Positions 6,710 to 25,152 of a stretch of DNA of 38,832 nt are shown here, piece by piece. Made by a program: the position numbers and the translations under genes. Positions within the stretch are counted from its first letter, which is position 1. Each line of letters starts with the position of its first letter. The DNA comes from Oscillospiraceae bacterium (lineage in GTDB: Bacteria > Bacillota > Clostridia > Oscillospirales > SIG530). The stretch lies in NCBI GenBank assembly GCA_015067075.1, contig SVND01000021.1, positions 1 to 38,832 on the forward strand, read 5' to 3'. The notes under the pieces were generated by a model. That model ran no database searches and was not told the DNA's origin. It was given only the letters and a program-made list of their open reading frames with translations.

Positions 6710-7915
6710 TTATGGCAATGCATTAAGCATATTTTCAATGAAAATGCCGTAGCCTTTCGTTGGATCATTTACAAAAACGTGAGTCACGGCGCCGATGAGC
6801 TTGCCGTTCTGGATAATGGGGCTGCCACTCATTCCTTGAATAATACCGCCTGTTTTCTCCAAAAGCCTTGCGTCCGTAACCTCAACGACCATATTTTTTG
6901 TCATTCGATTGCTGTTTTTGTTAACGCTTACGATGTTTACCTGATATTCCTTCGGTCCGTTTTCACCCAGCGTGCAAAGGATGCAGGCACTTCCCTCGTG
7001 TATCTCGTTGCGAAGAGCTATCTTCATGGGCTTCCCCTTCGGCAGCTTGTATCCCTCGCAAAGCTTGCCGTAAACACCGCATTCGTTGTTGTCCGACAGC
7101 GTGCCGACAGGTGCGTTTTCGTCAAAGCTTCCGATAAGCTCACCGGGCGCGCCTTTTTCACCTTTTTTTATACCGAACACATCGCATCGGACGACGTCAC
7201 CGCTTTTAAAGGGCATAAGCCGCCCCGTGTCAACGTCGCAAATGCCGTGGCCGAGTCCGGCAAAACAGCCAAGCTTTGGGCTGTAGAACGTCATCGTACC
7301 GATGCCTGCCGTGCTGTCACGCGTCCAAAGTCCGAGACGGTAATGTCCCGTGCCGTCCTCCTTGACGGGCGTGACGGTAATATCTGCTTTCTGCTCGTTT
7401 CTGCTGACGGAAAAGGTTATAGGCTTGCCGCCGCTTTCCTGTACAGACTGCAAAAGCTCGACGTCTGTAGTTATATCCTTTCCGTTGGCGGACAGGATAA
7501 CGTCGCCGAGGCGCATACCTGCATCGCGGGCGGGAGAGTAAAGAGCGCCGCCGCTTTCAAGCTCACAAATGCCGACCACCATTACACCTTCCGTTTTCAT
7601 GCGAAGCCCGAAAGCCTCGCCGCAGGGAATGAGCGTGTCCGTTGGCAAAACGGATACAGCCACGGATTTTAAAGGGAAAATACTGAGAAAGCGTGCTTTA
7701 ATATTATAAGAGCCTGAGTTTACCTCAGCAGATACAGCAGGTAATACAGTATCGCTCAGGGCGCTGACATAAGGCGTGTCAAGCTTGACCTCGTCGCCGC
7801 GGGCAAAAACGCAAGCCGTATCGGGCGTTGATGCATATGCGCCGATGTAAAAAACAGCGAAAGCAAAAACCGCCACAAATGCAAGCGTTTTAATAAATGG
7901 ATTTATTTTTGTCAT
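6710..7915 (-). CDS. spoIVB: SpoIVB-type S55 peptidase, sporulation signalling protease
   Basis: A 401-residue protein that in Bacillus is made in the forespore, crosses its membrane and triggers pro-sigma-K processing by cleaving SpoIVFA. Residues about 10-28 are a membrane anchor; a PDZ domain covers about 100-185 (SPARDAGMRLGDVILSANG); the SpoIVB peptidase domain follows. Signature stretches are GLWTRDSTAGIGTMTFYSP, GLGHGICDVDTG (His223), VTDARLL (Asp348) and TGGIIQGMSGSPIIQNGK (catalytic Ser363, by alignment to the Bacillus triad), then THVFVNDPTKGYGIFIE. The start at 7915 has AAAGG 10 nt upstream; an extension to 7999 would read through a hairpin. In Bacillus spoIVB lies beside recN and spo0A; neither is adjacent here, although a Spo0A-like gene is at 23521. 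Confidence 0.93.
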   Translation of the reverse strand: MTKINPFIKTLAFVAVFAFAVFYIGAYASTPDTACVFARGDEVKLDTPYVSALSDTVLPAVSAEVNSGSYNIKARFLSIFPLKSVAVSVLPTDTLIPCGEAFGLRMKTEGVMVVGICELESGGALYSPARDAGMRLGDVILSANGKDITTDVELLQSVQESGGKPITFSVSRNEQKADITVTPVKEDGTGHYRLGLWTRDSTAGIGTMTFYSPKLGCFAGLGHGICDVDTGRLMPFKSGDVVRCDVFGIKKGEKGAPGELIGSFDENAPVGTLSDNNECGVYGKLCEGYKLPKGKPMKIALRNEIHEGSACILCTLGENGPKEYQVNIVSVNKNSNRMTKNMVVEVTDARLLEKTGGIIQGMSGSPIIQNGKLIGAVTHVFVNDPTKGYGIFIENMLNALP

Positions 7916-7931
7916 ATAAACCGTGCCTTTC

Positions 7932-7959
7932 TGCCAAATGAAGCATTTTTCATTTGGCA
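7932..7959 (-). promoter_or_regulatory. leader hairpin before spoIVB
   Basis: TGCCAAATG (7932-7940) and CATTTGGCA (7951-7959) are a perfect 9-bp inverted repeat with a 10-nt loop, ending only 16 nt from the start codon and touching the AAAGG. It could influence translation of spoIVB or be a protein-binding site. Confidence 0.45.
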
Positions 7960-7978
7960 ACGTCCGCTTTATGCGAAC

Positions 7979-8021
7979 AATTTCATTTTGTCCGAGCAAA
8001 AGTCGATTATGAAATGAAATT
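7979..8021. repeat. AT-rich inverted repeat between divergent genes
   Basis: AATTTCATTT (7979-7988) and AAATGAAATT (8012-8021) are a perfect 10-bp inverted repeat separated by 23 nt. It sits in the gap between spoIVB and the SLOG gene; possible operator or hairpin, unknown role. Confidence 0.4.
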
Positions 8022-13289: not shown

Positions 13290-14441
13290 TTACAGTCTGA
13301 AATCGGGGACGTCCAGAAGAATGCCGCCTTTTCTTGCGGATTCTGCCGCCAAAATAGCGGGAGCCGCTGTTTCAACTGCCTTATAAACGTCAAGGGGAGG
13401 ATCTGTATCATTGATGATAGCGTCGATGAAATAGGAAATGGGATAATAATCGGCGCCGCCATGTGTTGCGTTGCGGATAAATTCGGGCTCATCGGGATCA
13501 GCCGTACCCCAATCCATGCTTTGCCATTCGCCGCCTGCAGTATACTTTTTCATCGTATCAAGTGTGCTTCTGCAAGTTTCAACTGTAGCCTTTGTACCCT
13601 TAATCTGATACCAATGAGCGCCTGTATGTGCTTTTGGACCGTAGGGTACGGAAAAGCCCGCACGAAGGGAGAAGATCGTATCGTTTGTGTTATACATGAG
13701 CGCCGTCTGAAGATCACAAGCATCGTAGCTTGATTCAAGATAGCTGCCCTGCTTTGTGCCGATACAGCTTACCTTTGAAATACGGCCACCTGTTACGGAA
13801 AGGAGGGGAGAAAGCTCATGAGGCATATAGAAAATGGGCTCAAGGAATGTATAATAACGCCATGACTTTACATATCTGGGATCGTCAAGATCTTCTCTGC
13901 ACTTGGGATGTACGGCAAAATTTGTCTTTTTATCTCTCAAAAGATCCCATACGGGCTCAAAGTGGAGATATTCACCTTCTGCGTAATAGATCTTACCGAA
14001 GTCACCGTTTTCAGCCATTTTGCGCCAATGCTTAAAGAAATTCCAATAGCGAGCCTGCTCGCCGAGCTGATACTTGACGCCGTTTTTTCTTACGGCGCTG
14101 ACAAGCTTGTAGCACTGATCGATAGTGTAAGCGGCAGGAACTTCAGTCATAACGTGAATACCGCGGCTCATTGCATCAACGGCATAATCGACCTGAGCGT
14201 TGGGGTCCATGGCGATAAGGAGCGCATCCATTTTTGCTTCCTTCATCATTGCTTCATAGCTTGTATATGCCTTGACATTGCCGCCGTGATTTTTGTTAAA
14301 AGCAGCTGCAACATCTGCTGCGCGGTTTTCCGCTATATCAGCAAAAGCAACAAATTCGACCTGCGGATGCATACAGTAGCATTCAATAATACCCTGTGCA
14401 CGAGGGCCGACACCGAGATAACCTATACGTACTTTTTTCAT
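13290..14441 (-). CDS. Gfo/Idh/MocA-family oxidoreductase, paralogue 1
   Basis: A 383-residue NAD(P)-dependent sugar-oxidoreductase-like protein. The Rossmann motif GYLGVGPRAQG is at residues 7-17, and the alpha/beta C-terminal domain starts near 120. In this superfamily a Lys in the EKP motif contacts nicotinamide and substrate; here the motif is EVP (100-102), so that Lys is absent. Other candidate catalytic residues include GEQARYWNF and THGGADYYP. The protein is roughly 80% identical by eye to the neighbour encoded at 14572-15723, so they are tandem duplicates. It has its own promoter carrying a pair of AraC-type direct repeats. GAGGTG precedes the ATG. Substrate unknown. Confidence 0.9.
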   Translation of the reverse strand: MKKVRIGYLGVGPRAQGIIECYCMHPQVEFVAFADIAENRAADVAAAFNKNHGGNVKAYTSYEAMMKEAKMDALLIAMDPNAQVDYAVDAMSRGIHVMTEVPAAYTIDQCYKLVSAVRKNGVKYQLGEQARYWNFFKHWRKMAENGDFGKIYYAEGEYLHFEPVWDLLRDKKTNFAVHPKCREDLDDPRYVKSWRYYTFLEPIFYMPHELSPLLSVTGGRISKVSCIGTKQGSYLESSYDACDLQTALMYNTNDTIFSLRAGFSVPYGPKAHTGAHWYQIKGTKATVETCRSTLDTMKKYTAGGEWQSMDWGTADPDEPEFIRNATHGGADYYPISYFIDAIINDTDPPLDVYKAVETAAPAILAAESARKGGILLDVPDFRL

Positions 14442-14571: not shown

Positions 14572-15723
14572 CTAAATTCTGAAATCGGGGACGTCCAAAA
14601 GCACGCCGCCTTGTCTTGCCGACTGCGCCGCCAATATGGCAGGAGCGGCAGTTTCAACGGCCTTGTAAACGTCCATGGGCGGTTGTTTGTCGTTTAAAAT
14701 AGCGTCAATAAAATACATTATGGGATAATAATCAGTACCGCCGTGGCTTGAATTGCGTATATATTCGGGCTCGCTGTAATCGACAGTGCCCCAATCTGCC
14801 ATTTCCCAGCCCGTGTCCGCACGGTACAGCTTCATCGTGTCGAGGGTGCTTCGCGCAGTTTCCGCGCAGGCTTTAGTGCCCTTTATCTGATACCAATGGG
14901 AGCCTGTATCGCGCCTGTCACCTGTGGGCGAGGCGAAGCCTGCACGCAAAGCAAAGATAGTGTCGTTCGTGTTATACATAACAGCCGATTGAAGATCGCA
15001 CGCATCGTAGCTTGTTTCCGTGTAGCTTCCGCGTTTCGTGCCGATACAGCTCACCTTGCTTATCCTGCCGCCTGTAATTGATAAAAGGGGCGACAGCTCG
15101 TGAGGCAAATAATAGATAGGCTCTAAAAAGGTGCGGTAACGCCATGATTTTATGTAGCGGGGATCGTCGAGATCCTCTTTTGACTTGGGGTATACAACGT
15201 AATTGGTCTTTTTATCTCGCAAAAGATCCCAAACGGGCATATAGTGAGTGTATTCGCCCTCGACGTAGTATATCTTGCCGAACTCGTCATTTTCAGCCAT
15301 TTTGCGCCATTGCTTAAAAAAGTTGCAATAGCGGTTTTGCTCGCCAAGCTGATATTTTACTCCGTTTTTCCTTACGGCATTTACAAGCTTATAGCACTGG
15401 TCGATGGTGAACGCCGCAGGGACGTCGGTCATAACGTGGACGCCCTTGTCCATGGCGTCTACAGCGTAATCCACCTGCACGTCAGGATCCATGGCGATAA
15501 GAAGTGCATCCATTTTTGCTTCCTTCATCATCGCCTCATAGCTCGTATACGCTTTAACGCTTGCACCATGCTTTTTGTTATATTCAGCCGCCACACTTTC
15601 GGCGCGCCCTGCGGCAATATCCGCAAAAGCAACGAATTGCACCTGCTCGTGAAAGCTGTAGCATTCCATGAGTCCCTGTGCGCGCGGACCGACACCGAGA
15701 TAACCGATACGTACTTTTTTCAT
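14572..15723 (-). CDS. Gfo/Idh/MocA-family oxidoreductase, paralogue 2
   Basis: A 383-residue protein, collinear with and about 80% identical by eye to paralogue 1, beginning with the same MKKVRIGYLGVGPRAQG. The lysine of the usual EKP motif is again absent; the motif reads DVP instead. The two differ in scattered active-site-side positions (for example GEQNRYCNF here against GEQARYWNF), hinting at different substrates or stereochemistry rather than simple redundancy. A longer frame reaching 15792 exists, but 15723 gives the same length as the paralogue and has GGGGTG 6 nt upstream. This is the first gene of the leftward operon and is divergent from the AraC regulator. No terminator is obvious before paralogue 1, whose own promoter follows. 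Confidence 0.9.
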   Translation of the reverse strand: MKKVRIGYLGVGPRAQGLMECYSFHEQVQFVAFADIAAGRAESVAAEYNKKHGASVKAYTSYEAMMKEAKMDALLIAMDPDVQVDYAVDAMDKGVHVMTDVPAAFTIDQCYKLVNAVRKNGVKYQLGEQNRYCNFFKQWRKMAENDEFGKIYYVEGEYTHYMPVWDLLRDKKTNYVVYPKSKEDLDDPRYIKSWRYRTFLEPIYYLPHELSPLLSITGGRISKVSCIGTKRGSYTETSYDACDLQSAVMYNTNDTIFALRAGFASPTGDRRDTGSHWYQIKGTKACAETARSTLDTMKLYRADTGWEMADWGTVDYSEPEYIRNSSHGGTDYYPIMYFIDAILNDKQPPMDVYKAVETAAPAILAAQSARQGGVLLDVPDFRI

Positions 15724-15793
15724 ATCAACACCCCATGTTTTTTGCGTTATTTTTTGTTGAAATATAAAATTTTTTACTTTTTCATGATTCATC

Positions 15794-21617: not shown

Positions 21618-23498
21618 ATGTTTTGGCTGAATGTACATGATCTGTGCAAGTCCTACGGCGACACAGATATTTTGAAAGACGTTTCCTTCGATGTATTCGA
21701 CGGCGAGCACGTTGCCCTTGTCGGCGCAAACGGTGCAGGTAAGACGACGCTTTTCAAGCTCATTACGGGAAAAGAAGAATATGACAGCGGTGAAATATCT
21801 ACTCCATCCGGCGCTATCGTCGGAGTTTTGGATCAGATACCGAATTACCCCGCTGAATTTACCGTGCTCGATGTTTTGAAGACGGCTTTTTCGCGTTTGT
21901 ACGATATTGAAAAAAAGCTGGCTGTCCTTGCTCAGCAATTGAATGATCCTTTAAAGCTTGAGCAGTACGGTAAGCTGGAAGCTGATTTCGATATGAGCGG
22001 CGGTTACACCATCGACAGCACCATTGCAAAGGTTTGCGGCGGTCTTGCCATTTCTGCCGATATGCAGGCAAGACAGTTTTCCGTTTTATCGGGCGGCGAA
22101 AAGACGCGTGTCAATCTTGCAAGGCTTATGCTTATGCAAACGGATGCGCTGTTTCTTGACGAGCCGACGAACCATCTTGACATTTCATCTGTCGAATGGC
22201 TTGAGGATTTTATCAGCCAATACAAGGGTACTGTCGTTATAATTTCCCACGACAGATTTTTCCTTGACAGAACCACAAAGAAAACTATCGAGCTTGAGGA
22301 TACGCATTCCACGGTATATACGGGAAATTACAGCGAATATATCAAGCAAAAGGAGCAAAATTACGCCACCATGCTGGCGCAATACGAGCGGATACAAAAG
22401 GAAGCGACAAGGCTTGCCGATGTGGCACGAGTAATGCACGAGCGCGGTACGGAAAAGCAGCATAAAACGGCTTTTGCCATAGAAAGACGTGTTGAGCGTA
22501 TGCTGGCGGGACAGGTAAAGCCGCCGCGCAAGCAAAAACATCTTAACGCACGATTTGGCGAGCGTGAGTCCATGTCGATGGAGGTCATGAACGCTAAAAA
22601 CATCAGCAAGGCGTTTGGTGACAAGGTGATATGCGAGGGACTTGACCTTTCGGTGCGCAAGGATGACCGCATTGCACTTATCGGTGATAACGGATGCGGC
22701 AAGTCGACGCTTTTGAATATGCTGTCGAAAAAGCTTGCCTCGGATAGCGGATACGTGAAATTCGGCGACAGCGTAAAATATATTATGCTTGAGCAGGAGA
22801 TTCGCTTTCCGAATGGCGACGATACCGTACTTGACACGGTTATGACACAGCTTCGTTTTTCATCGTATCAGCAGGCGAGAGACAGACTCGGTTCTTTCGG
22901 TTTTTCAGGCGACGACGTATTTAAAACGCTCCGTTCCCTTTCGGGCGGCGAGAAAAACAGGCTTCATTTGTGTTTGCTTATGAAAAGCGACGTGAACTTT
23001 TTGATCTTGGACGAGCCGACGAACCATCTTGATATCATGTCGCGCGAATGGCTTGAGGACTCCATTGACGATTTCGGCGGAACGCTTCTTTTCGTTTCCC
23101 ACGACAGATATTTTATCAACAAGTTTGCGGACATAATCTGGGAAATGGAAAACGGTAAAATACGTATATTCCGCGGTACTTATGAGGAGTACCGAGAGGA
23201 TAAGCGCAGAAGAGATGCTCTTGCGGCGGCAGAGCAGGCAAAGCAAAGGGTGGCACAACAGGCAGAGCAAGCGCCGAAGCCGAAGGGTCAAAAGCCTAAA
23301 AGTGAAAAGAGCATTGAACGTGCGCGCAATGCCTGTGAAAATAAAATACTGTCATGCGAGCAGGAAATAGAAGCGCTTGACATGCAAATAAATGAAGCTG
23401 CCAGCGATTATCTGAAGCTGACAGAGCTTTTGGCAAAGCGCGAGGAGCTTGACAAAAAGCTTGGCGAGCTTTACGATGAGTGGGCCCAATATGACTGA
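21618..23498 (+). CDS. ABC-F family ATPase (Uup/YfmR-like ribosome-associated factor)
   Basis: A 626-residue soluble protein with two ABC ATPase domains and no membrane segment. Walker A motifs are at 36-44 (GANGAGKTT) and about 355-363 (GDNGCGKST); signatures LSGGEKTRV and LSGGEKNRL; Walker B with catalytic Glu181 and Glu465 (DEPTNHLD twice). The linker between domains (about 235-320, charged) matches the P-site tRNA-interacting motif of ABC-F proteins, and the C-terminal 100 residues are a coiled coil, as in Uup/YfmR. ABC-F proteins act on ribosomes with stalled nascent chains or confer antibiotic protection; a housekeeping role is more likely here given the efp neighbourhood. It has AAAGG 6 nt upstream. 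Confidence 0.93.
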   Translation: MFWLNVHDLCKSYGDTDILKDVSFDVFDGEHVALVGANGAGKTTLFKLITGKEEYDSGEISTPSGAIVGVLDQIPNYPAEFTVLDVLKTAFSRLYDIEKKLAVLAQQLNDPLKLEQYGKLEADFDMSGGYTIDSTIAKVCGGLAISADMQARQFSVLSGGEKTRVNLARLMLMQTDALFLDEPTNHLDISSVEWLEDFISQYKGTVVIISHDRFFLDRTTKKTIELEDTHSTVYTGNYSEYIKQKEQNYATMLAQYERIQKEATRLADVARVMHERGTEKQHKTAFAIERRVERMLAGQVKPPRKQKHLNARFGERESMSMEVMNAKNISKAFGDKVICEGLDLSVRKDDRIALIGDNGCGKSTLLNMLSKKLASDSGYVKFGDSVKYIMLEQEIRFPNGDDTVLDTVMTQLRFSSYQQARDRLGSFGFSGDDVFKTLRSLSGGEKNRLHLCLLMKSDVNFLILDEPTNHLDIMSREWLEDSIDDFGGTLLFVSHDRYFINKFADIIWEMENGKIRIFRGTYEEYREDKRRRDALAAAEQAKQRVAQQAEQAPKPKGQKPKSEKSIERARNACENKILSCEQEIEALDMQINEAASDYLKLTELLAKREELDKKLGELYDEWAQYD

Positions 23499-23520
23499 CA
23501 ATAAAATATGAGGAAACGCG

Positions 23521-24207
23521 ATGAGCAGGAAAAAATCTGTTTTGATATGTGCCTGCAATAACGATATGTGCCAATTGCTCAAGCTGAGATTTTTGGAGTC
23601 GGGATATTTTTCCGTAATAGATTCGACCAGCGACGGAGAAAGAGCGCTGATGAGCACAAAACAGCTTTATCCGGATCTTTTGATCTTGGATTACGAGATG
23701 AAGCGACCTGATATAAATTCAATGTTTTCAAGAATTGAGGAAATATCGGAATGCTGTCGTCCGCAAATATTTTTGCTGATACCGTATACGAGAAATTTGA
23801 GCGCAAAGGAGCTTTCATGCTTTTCGTTTAAAAAGTGCTTTACATATCCGTGTGATTATGATACAATAGTAGAAAATGGTATAGATATTTTTTCAAAAGC
23901 AGGCGAAAGCTTCAAAATGAATTTTGAAAAGAAAGCCGCGCTGCTGTTGCAAAAAGAAAGCATCCCGAAGCATTTGAGCGGATATAAATATCTGATGGAA
24001 GCATCGTTTATCGTGGCTTCCTCGCCACAGCAGTACCACGGAGCATACGAGCTTTATGCAGAAGTGGCAAAAACATATAAAACAAAGGTATCAAACGTAG
24101 AAAGAAATATCAGAACGGCTTTGACACAGGGATATGTGGGAGAAAAAAAGCCGACTAATCTCGCTTTTATCTATTATATAGCAAACAAAATATTATATGA
24201 ATTATAA
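23521..24207 (+). CDS. Spo0A-like regulator with degraded receiver domain
   Basis: A 228-residue protein. Residues 5-125 resemble a response-regulator receiver: the phospho-acceptor Asp57 (DLLILDYEM) remains, but the acidic pair that binds magnesium is Asn13-Asn14 and the usual Lys before Pro is missing (FTYPCD). Residues 147-228 match the Spo0A DNA-binding domain: IPKHLSGYKYLMEA, AEVAKTYKTKVSNVERNIRTAL and the closing KPTNLAFIYYIANKILYEL. The segment between the recognition helix and the last helices is shorter than in Bacillus Spo0A. It starts 22 nt after the ABC-F gene and precedes a glycosyltransferase by 12 nt. It may be a diverged Spo0A or a paralogue. GAGGAAA precedes the ATG. Confidence 0.83.
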   Translation: MSRKKSVLICACNNDMCQLLKLRFLESGYFSVIDSTSDGERALMSTKQLYPDLLILDYEMKRPDINSMFSRIEEISECCRPQIFLLIPYTRNLSAKELSCFSFKKCFTYPCDYDTIVENGIDIFSKAGESFKMNFEKKAALLLQKESIPKHLSGYKYLMEASFIVASSPQQYHGAYELYAEVAKTYKTKVSNVERNIRTALTQGYVGEKKPTNLAFIYYIANKILYEL

Positions 24208-24219
24208 AGGAGCGTTAAT

Positions 24220-25152
24220 ATGAGCAAAGCAGTATATTCCATAGTTGTTCCGCTTTACAATGAACAGGAGGTCTTGCCCACTTCTTATGCAAGACTTAAA
24301 GCTGTTTTAGAAACATTGGACGGACCGTATGAGCTTATTTTTGTAAACGACGGAAGTAAAGACAAAACGCTTGAAATGGCGAAGGAGCTTTGTGAAAAGG
24401 ATAAGACACTTCGTCTTATCAGCTTTGCTCGCAATTTCGGCCATCAGGCGGCTATAACCGCAGGTATGAACGCGGCTGAAGGCGATGCTATCGTTGTAAT
24501 CGATGCTGACCTGCAGGATCCACCCGAGGTCATCCTTGACATGGTGAAAAAGTGGAAGGAAGGCTACGACGTTGTTTACGGCAAGCGCGAAAAGCGTGAC
24601 GGCGAAAGCGCATTTAAGCTCGTTACGGCAAAGGCGTTTTACCGCATTCTCAAAAGCCTTACCGACGTTGACATTCCCGTTGATACGGGTGATTTCCGCT
24701 TGCTTGACAAAAAGGTAAATGAGGCATTGAAAACGCTTCCCGAGCGCAACAGATACGTGCGCGGTCTTGTTTCATGGGTCGGATTTAAGCAGACGGGCGT
24801 GTTTTTCCACAGACAGGAGCGCGCCGCAGGCGAAACTAAATACACGCTGAAAAAGATGCTCAAATTGGCGGGCGACGGTATAGTTTCCTTTTCATCGTCA
24901 CCTTTAAAGCTTGGCGCACCCCTCGGTATAGGTGTTTGCGGATTATCTGCGTTAGGCTTTATACTTTACCTTGTTTTATCCCTTGTGGGCGGATATTTCG
25001 CGCTTAATACAGCGCTTTTGTTTGCAATTCTTTTTGTAAGCGGTCTTATTTTAACGGTTTTCGGAATAACCGGACTTTATTTTGCCCGCCTTTACGATGA
25101 AGTAAAGGGCAGACCGATGTATATTATCGGGGAAAAAGTCAATTTTGACTGA
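24220..25152 (+). CDS. GT2 polyprenyl-phosphate glycosyltransferase (GtrB/CsbB-like)
   Basis: A 310-residue membrane enzyme that transfers a sugar from a nucleotide sugar to undecaprenyl phosphate for cell-wall or glycolipid decoration. The GT-A domain (1-230) contains FVNDGSKDKT, the DxD-type DADLQDPPE, RNFGHQAA, DTGDFRLL and RNRYVRGLVSWVG. Two transmembrane helices follow (about 233-258 and 265-290), as in GtrB, CsbB and DPM-type synthases. AAAGGAG precedes the ATG. A membrane protein of flippase type (19207-20298) is encoded nearby, and the FAD protein downstream is a type often seen next to such GT2 genes. Confidence 0.93.
   Translation: MSKAVYSIVVPLYNEQEVLPTSYARLKAVLETLDGPYELIFVNDGSKDKTLEMAKELCEKDKTLRLISFARNFGHQAAITAGMNAAEGDAIVVIDADLQDPPEVILDMVKKWKEGYDVVYGKREKRDGESAFKLVTAKAFYRILKSLTDVDIPVDTGDFRLLDKKVNEALKTLPERNRYVRGLVSWVGFKQTGVFFHRQERAAGETKYTLKKMLKLAGDGIVSFSSSPLKLGAPLGIGVCGLSALGFILYLVLSLVGGYFALNTALLFAILFVSGLILTVFGITGLYFARLYDEVKGRPMYIIGEKVNFD

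Follow-up and report, generated by a model that had tools for sequence, protein, structure and literature searches.

Gene organization at the locus

The stretch of DNA analyzed here (38,832 nucleotides; hereafter the window) encodes a Spo0A-like protein that we designate P0001. Its gene and those on either side are arranged as follows.

21618-23498, same strand as P0001: gene for an ABC-F ATPase, separated from P0001 by a 22-nt gap
23510..23515, + strand: GAGGAA, a likely ribosome-binding site, read from the sequence 5 nt 5' of the P0001 start
23521..24207, + strand: P0001, gene for a Spo0A paralogue of 228 amino acids that joins a pseudo-receiver to a trimmed Spo0A_C domain (open reading frame, Pfam, alignment)
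24220-25152, same strand as P0001: GT2 gene, beginning 12 nt past the P0001 end

P0001 starts with ATG and its frame remains intact over 228 codons. The co-directional orientation and tight gaps make it likely that the ABC-F, P0001, and GT2 genes constitute one operon. P0001 has a GC content of 37.7% (window, 45.4%). No other gene among 25 has so low a codon score, yet the score is higher in frame than in both other frames. Relaxed selection or foreign origin would fit the low GC content and codon score. Scanning the window for 0A boxes revealed no enrichment (38 found versus 44 expected) and no 0A-like site in the 22-nt gap 5' of P0001. None of the GT2 homologues retrieved from related genomes (36-60% identity) adjoins a Spo0A-like gene.

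Within P0001, a sigma-70-like promoter match with an extended -10 element (TTTACA-17-TACAAT) is located at 23839-23867, upstream of Met133; a start at this methionine would give a receiver-less effector domain. We set aside an internal promoter for such a product because matches in the region (15 versus 9.9 +/- 2.8) barely exceed chance. Elsewhere in the window, two adjoining and closely similar Gfo/Idh-type oxidoreductase-like genes (13290-14441 and 14572-15792) appear by eye to be a tandem duplicate.

Analysis of the receiver domain

The N-terminal portion of P0001 contains the features listed below.

23521..23898, + strand: receiver-like domain, residues 1-126 (AlphaFold2 model, structural alignment)
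23551..23556, + strand: Ala11-Cys12, where an acidic, metal-binding pair is expected (alignments)
23689..23691, + strand: Asp57, the sole catalytic residue retained out of five (alignments)
23779..23781, + strand: Ile87, at the conserved Thr/Ser position (alignments)
23845..23847, + strand: Tyr109, at the conserved Lys position and followed by PCDYDT (alignments)

The overall fold of this domain is that of a receiver. Comparison to the receiver of phospho-Spo0A (1qmp) with VIA-align yields a Z score of 18.4 and an rmsd of 2.4 over 123 aligned residues, and Z scores of 17-19 are obtained against many receivers. The Response_reg profile (PF00072) matches below its gathering threshold (21.7 bits versus 30.2; E 2.4e-4).

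The phosphorylation pocket was aligned with those of the genome's own Spo0A, other Spo0As of the order, and B. subtilis Spo0A. VLICACNND of P0001 aligns to the canonical VLIVDDNKE, which places Ala11-Cys12 at the position of the acidic pair. An earlier note on this DNA had assigned Asn13-Asn14 to that position; Asn13 is instead the ordinary Asn that follows the pair. The note's broader claim of a lost pocket stands, as realignment yields no canonical acidic pocket, and the alignment also bears out the absence of the conserved Lys and the retention of Asp57. The substitution of Ile87 for Thr/Ser and a gap of ~18 residues in the effector domain had gone unnoticed. Phosphorylatable receivers are recognized by an acidic pair, Asp, Thr/Ser, and Lys; four of these five pocket residues are gone from P0001. 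Normal phosphotransfer to Asp57 thus appears unlikely because the direct metal ligand (the second acidic residue), Lys, and Thr are all absent.

Bacterial pseudo-receivers are set apart from receivers at the D+4 Pro, D+8 Gly, and K-3/Y-T positions (Bourret et al. 2025, PMC12632262). In P0001, Lys61 replaces the D+4 Pro, Ile65 the D+8 Gly, and Cys106 the aromatic K-3 residue, and the Y-T coupling residues are gone (I87, C106). P0001, a (beta-alpha)5 fold without key phosphotransfer residues, belongs with the bacterial pseudo-receivers, which share its receiver fold and its losses at D+4, D+8, and the Y-T positions. It differs from them in that its effector domain is altered as well; the text of Bourret et al. 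2025 that we searched makes no mention of Spo0A.

Analysis of the effector domain

The C-terminal portion of P0001 is organized as follows.

23911..24204, + strand: effector domain, residues 131-228 (structural alignment)
24088..24132, + strand: recognition-helix region, residues 190-204, VSNVERNIRTALTQG (alignments, AlphaFold2 model)
24130..24147, + strand: segment abutting the recognition-helix region (alignments, spacer comparison)

The earlier claim that the C-terminus follows Spo0A proved correct. The Spo0A_C profile (PF08769) matches well above its cut-off (55.4 bits versus 25; E 6.9e-15) over profile positions 4-66 of 104, and the open reading frame thus encodes a receiver together with Spo0A_C. 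VIA-align superimposes the domain on the effector domain of Spo0A (1fc3_B) with a Z score of 16.8, an rmsd of 1.6, 97 aligned residues, and 33% identity, minus helix E. A structure prediction, which the earlier note had proposed as a check, gives the same picture. The AlphaFold2 model (59-row alignment; mean pLDDT 92.9, pTM 0.69) contains receiver and effector folds and, from residue 113 on, a long helix (113-145) followed by helices at 153-167, 175-185, 190-204, and 213-227. In order, these five correspond to helices A through D and helix F; no helix lies between residues 204 and 213. Foldseek ranks other response regulators at the top for P0001, its list being filled by matches to the receiver.

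The DNA-reading helix-turn-helix (HTH) of P0001 is retained. The recognition-helix region of B. subtilis Spo0A (206-222) reads NTTASRVERAIRHAIEV, and its counterpart in P0001 reads KTKVSNVERNIRTALTQ. P0001 retains S210, E213, R214, and R217 (B. subtilis numbering), the V-E-R-x-I-R recognition core, and the C-terminal KPTN motif; R211 is replaced by N and H218 by T. Among near-invariant columns, P0001 retains 11/18 in the HTH, 4/8 in the receiver, and 5/16 in the region before the HTH. R211N and H218T, together with the 5/16 columns, suggest that the DNA affinity or specificity of P0001 may be changed.

A further alteration follows the recognition helix. Canonical Spo0A has ~24 residues between this helix and KPTN, including GNIDSISSLFGYTV (227-240), the sigma-A-activating region of the B. 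subtilis protein. P0001 has six residues (GYVGEK), and ~18 residues are absent; only 3 of the 20 columns that make up the E region (B. subtilis 223-242) are occupied in P0001. Helix E, with the sigma-A-activating region, is therefore missing from both the alignment and the model. Compared with divergent paralogues and with the Spo0A_C proteins that 24 viral contigs encode, P0001 has one of the shortest spacers. Deletion of the sigma-A-activating helix shifts the likely role of P0001 from a tuned activator to a non-activator.

There is a precedent for losing residues here. In C. pasteurianum M150B, Spo0A lacks residues 235-242 of the same region through an in-frame deletion, which accompanies loss of sporulation (PMC4690370). 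That case differs from P0001 in being a laboratory mutation in the only Spo0A of an asporogenous strain, with no change reported in the receiver. The A257V mutation in B. subtilis Spo0A blocks sporulation while repression of abrB is kept (PMC9195935), which indicates that activation and repression by Spo0A are separable. Truncated Spo0A_C proteins of phages, for which interference with host sporulation has been proposed (PMC10294663), resemble P0001 in having an effector domain freed from phospho-control. In contrast to P0001, which has a receiver fold and chromosomal neighbors, they are receiver-less and mostly have a full helix E. Spo0A_C genes on the viral contigs we collected (L186-L209) are mostly receiver-less; in three of them (L206, L193, and L205) the region after the recognition helix is shortened, reminiscent of P0001.

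A canonical Spo0A in the same genome

The second, canonical spo0A for which the earlier note suggested a search is present. The genome encodes one further Spo0A_C protein (G000:C43; 260 amino acids, 158-bit Spo0A_C match), the pocket of which is intact (D-D, D, S, K). The note's statement that sporulation genes exist in this genome also holds: spoIVB lies in the window, and core regulators are found elsewhere.

6710-7999: spoIVB

The core set comprises spoIIAA-AB-sigF, spoIIGA-sigE, sigK, sigG, spoIVA, and spoIVB, of which sigE, sigK, spoIIA, and spoIIGA were named by gene order and by match to the sigma-G profile. An in-frame TGA in sigF is only apparent; it lies upstream of the real start, and the spoIIA operon is intact. 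The presence of an intact-pocket Spo0A and core sporulation genes in the same genome identifies P0001 as a paralogue. Regulation without phosphorylation, which the earlier note had raised, becomes the natural reading for P0001 because it is a pseudo-receiver paralogue in such a genome.

P0001 resembles Spo0A of B. subtilis and Clostridium (TIGR02875) in joining a receiver to Spo0A_C and in retaining V-E-R-x-I-R, Asp57, and KPTN. It differs in being a second copy that is 22-30% identical and lacks the acidic pair, Thr/Ser, Lys, and helix E; its score against the TIGR02875 equivalog is 70.8 bits (E 1e-19) versus a cut-off of 200. Searches of 59 relatives, genome contigs, viral contigs, phages, and plasmids revealed no orthologue: the best match is ~30% identical, and none is close over the full length. 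The bacterial family that carries P0001 was represented in these searches by the present genome alone. In the tree, P0001 forms a long, unplaced branch (2.73 changes per column), and a sister relation to the own-genome Spo0A is not rejected (p-AU 0.28). Among all sequences collected, the PCDYDT motif that opens alpha 5 is common only to P0001 and the own-genome Spo0A, which suggests a lineage-specific duplicate as the simplest reading.

Possible roles of P0001

We tentatively favor a model in which P0001 is a diverged Spo0A duplicate, independent of phosphorylation and non-activating, that represses or competes at Spo0A targets. The protein would be made from the ABC-F/GT2 transcription unit and would act without a phosphoryl-transfer gate. 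It would occupy 0A-box-like sites or pair with Spo0A without activating sigma-A promoters. As a constitutive repressor or competitor, it would raise the threshold for sporulation or hold down Spo0A-repressed genes, and its activity would be set by its level or by a protein partner of the pseudo-receiver. Of the earlier proposal that a paralogue tunes sporulation or wall biogenesis, the paralogue is confirmed and its influence on sporulation is plausible; a wall role deduced from the GT2 neighbor is not borne out.

The main rival is decay. A non-essential copy of Spo0A under relaxed selection could persist as an open frame with no selected role, a reading that we rate as unlikely while taking it seriously. 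It would account for the occurrence of P0001 in a single genome on a long branch, for its low GC content and lowest codon score, for separate lesions in the pocket and at helix E, and for neighbors that are not conserved. Decay is countered by a frame intact over 228 codons, a confident two-domain model from which one helix is cleanly removed, a good ribosome-binding site with tight operon spacing, and stronger conservation in the HTH core than elsewhere in the protein.

The HTH also bears on a second alternative, in which P0001 acts at the protein level rather than through DNA, its pseudo-receiver serving as a decoy or heterodimer partner that binds the receiver of canonical Spo0A, kinases, or phosphatases. 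The receiver fold is kept (Z 18.4 to 1qmp), the own-genome Spo0A alone has the same PCDYDT at alpha 5, which belongs to the usual dimer face, and indirect protein-protein mechanisms have been proposed for pseudo-receivers (PMC12632262). We consider this mode of action distinctly unlikely given that the HTH is the best-kept part of the protein, a pattern one would not expect of a protein with no use for DNA, and that the Y-T coupling residues are gone.

P0001 could alternatively have come to control a separate set of targets, such as the downstream GT2 gene or envelope genes, with the link to sporulation gone. Its co-directional position with ABC-F and GT2, the latter 12 nt on, and the diverged flank of the recognition helix (R211N, H218T) would agree with such a role. 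We view it as quite improbable: GT2 homologues elsewhere lack a Spo0A-like neighbor, the 22-nt upstream gap contains no 0A-like site, and activation without helix E would require a new contact. Finally, descent from a mobile or phage anti-sporulation gene carrying a Spo0A effector plus receiver is suggested by the low GC content and by the Spo0A_C genes of phage contigs, mostly without a receiver (see also PMC10294663), but is highly improbable in view of the receiver, the PCDYDT motif common to the host's Spo0A, the sister relation that was not rejected, and surroundings devoid of phage genes.

Spo0A across the order

We assigned the order, probably Oscillospirales, by its named neighbors (in Spo0A, 74% to Flavonifractor and 65% to Agathobaculum). 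Several Spo0A_C genes per genome are common in this order. One well-supported clade comprises 12 second Spo0A-like proteins (L038, L048, L049, L051, L058-L061, L064, L065, L067, and L044:5172-6338) with a complete E-D/D/T/K pocket and a strongly diverged Spo0A_C; these are probably regulators that can be phosphorylated and that act at different DNA targets.

To survey main Spo0As, we used 40 proteins of the same order (L210-L249), selected solely on their C-terminal domain and drawn from across the families. All five pocket residues are present in 14 of the 40. The second residue of the acidic pair is non-acidic in 18/40, and the phosphoacceptor is Glu or Asn in eight; in sampled main Spo0As with an eroded pocket, the DNA-binding domain is fully conserved. 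Outside the order (Clostridiaceae, Lachnospiraceae, Syntrophomonadaceae, Bacillaceae, and others), named Spo0As keep all five residues in a set chosen by similarity to P0001. SpoIVA is found in 68/69 genomes examined, and pocket erosion is therefore not tied to loss of the SpoIVA gene. We found no prior report of order-wide erosion of the Spo0A pocket in the open-access literature searched.

It is tempting to speculate that Spo0A in this order has been repeatedly freed from Asp phosphorylation, the main Spo0A being a pseudo-response regulator in many lineages that carry sporulation genes, and that the present genome took another route by combining a phosphorylatable Spo0A with a non-activating pseudo-receiver copy as a standing antagonist. 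We regard this generalization as doubtful. If true, the phosphorelay would not be the only control on entry into sporulation, which would depend on the balance between Spo0A and anti-Spo0A or on a different signal.

Phosphorylation of Spo0A is regarded as the universal switch for entry into sporulation. P0001 is a Spo0A paralogue with a pseudo-receiver and is also, judged by its predicted anatomy, a non-activator. Lacking both the pocket and the sigma-A-activating helix, it represents a natural separation-of-function mutant of Spo0A and a candidate sporulation antagonist. Erosion of the pocket across the order is a more general lead than P0001 and may matter more. Our survey suggests that the textbook chemistry of the switch may not hold across a whole order of gut-type bacteria, in which sporulation bears on transmission.
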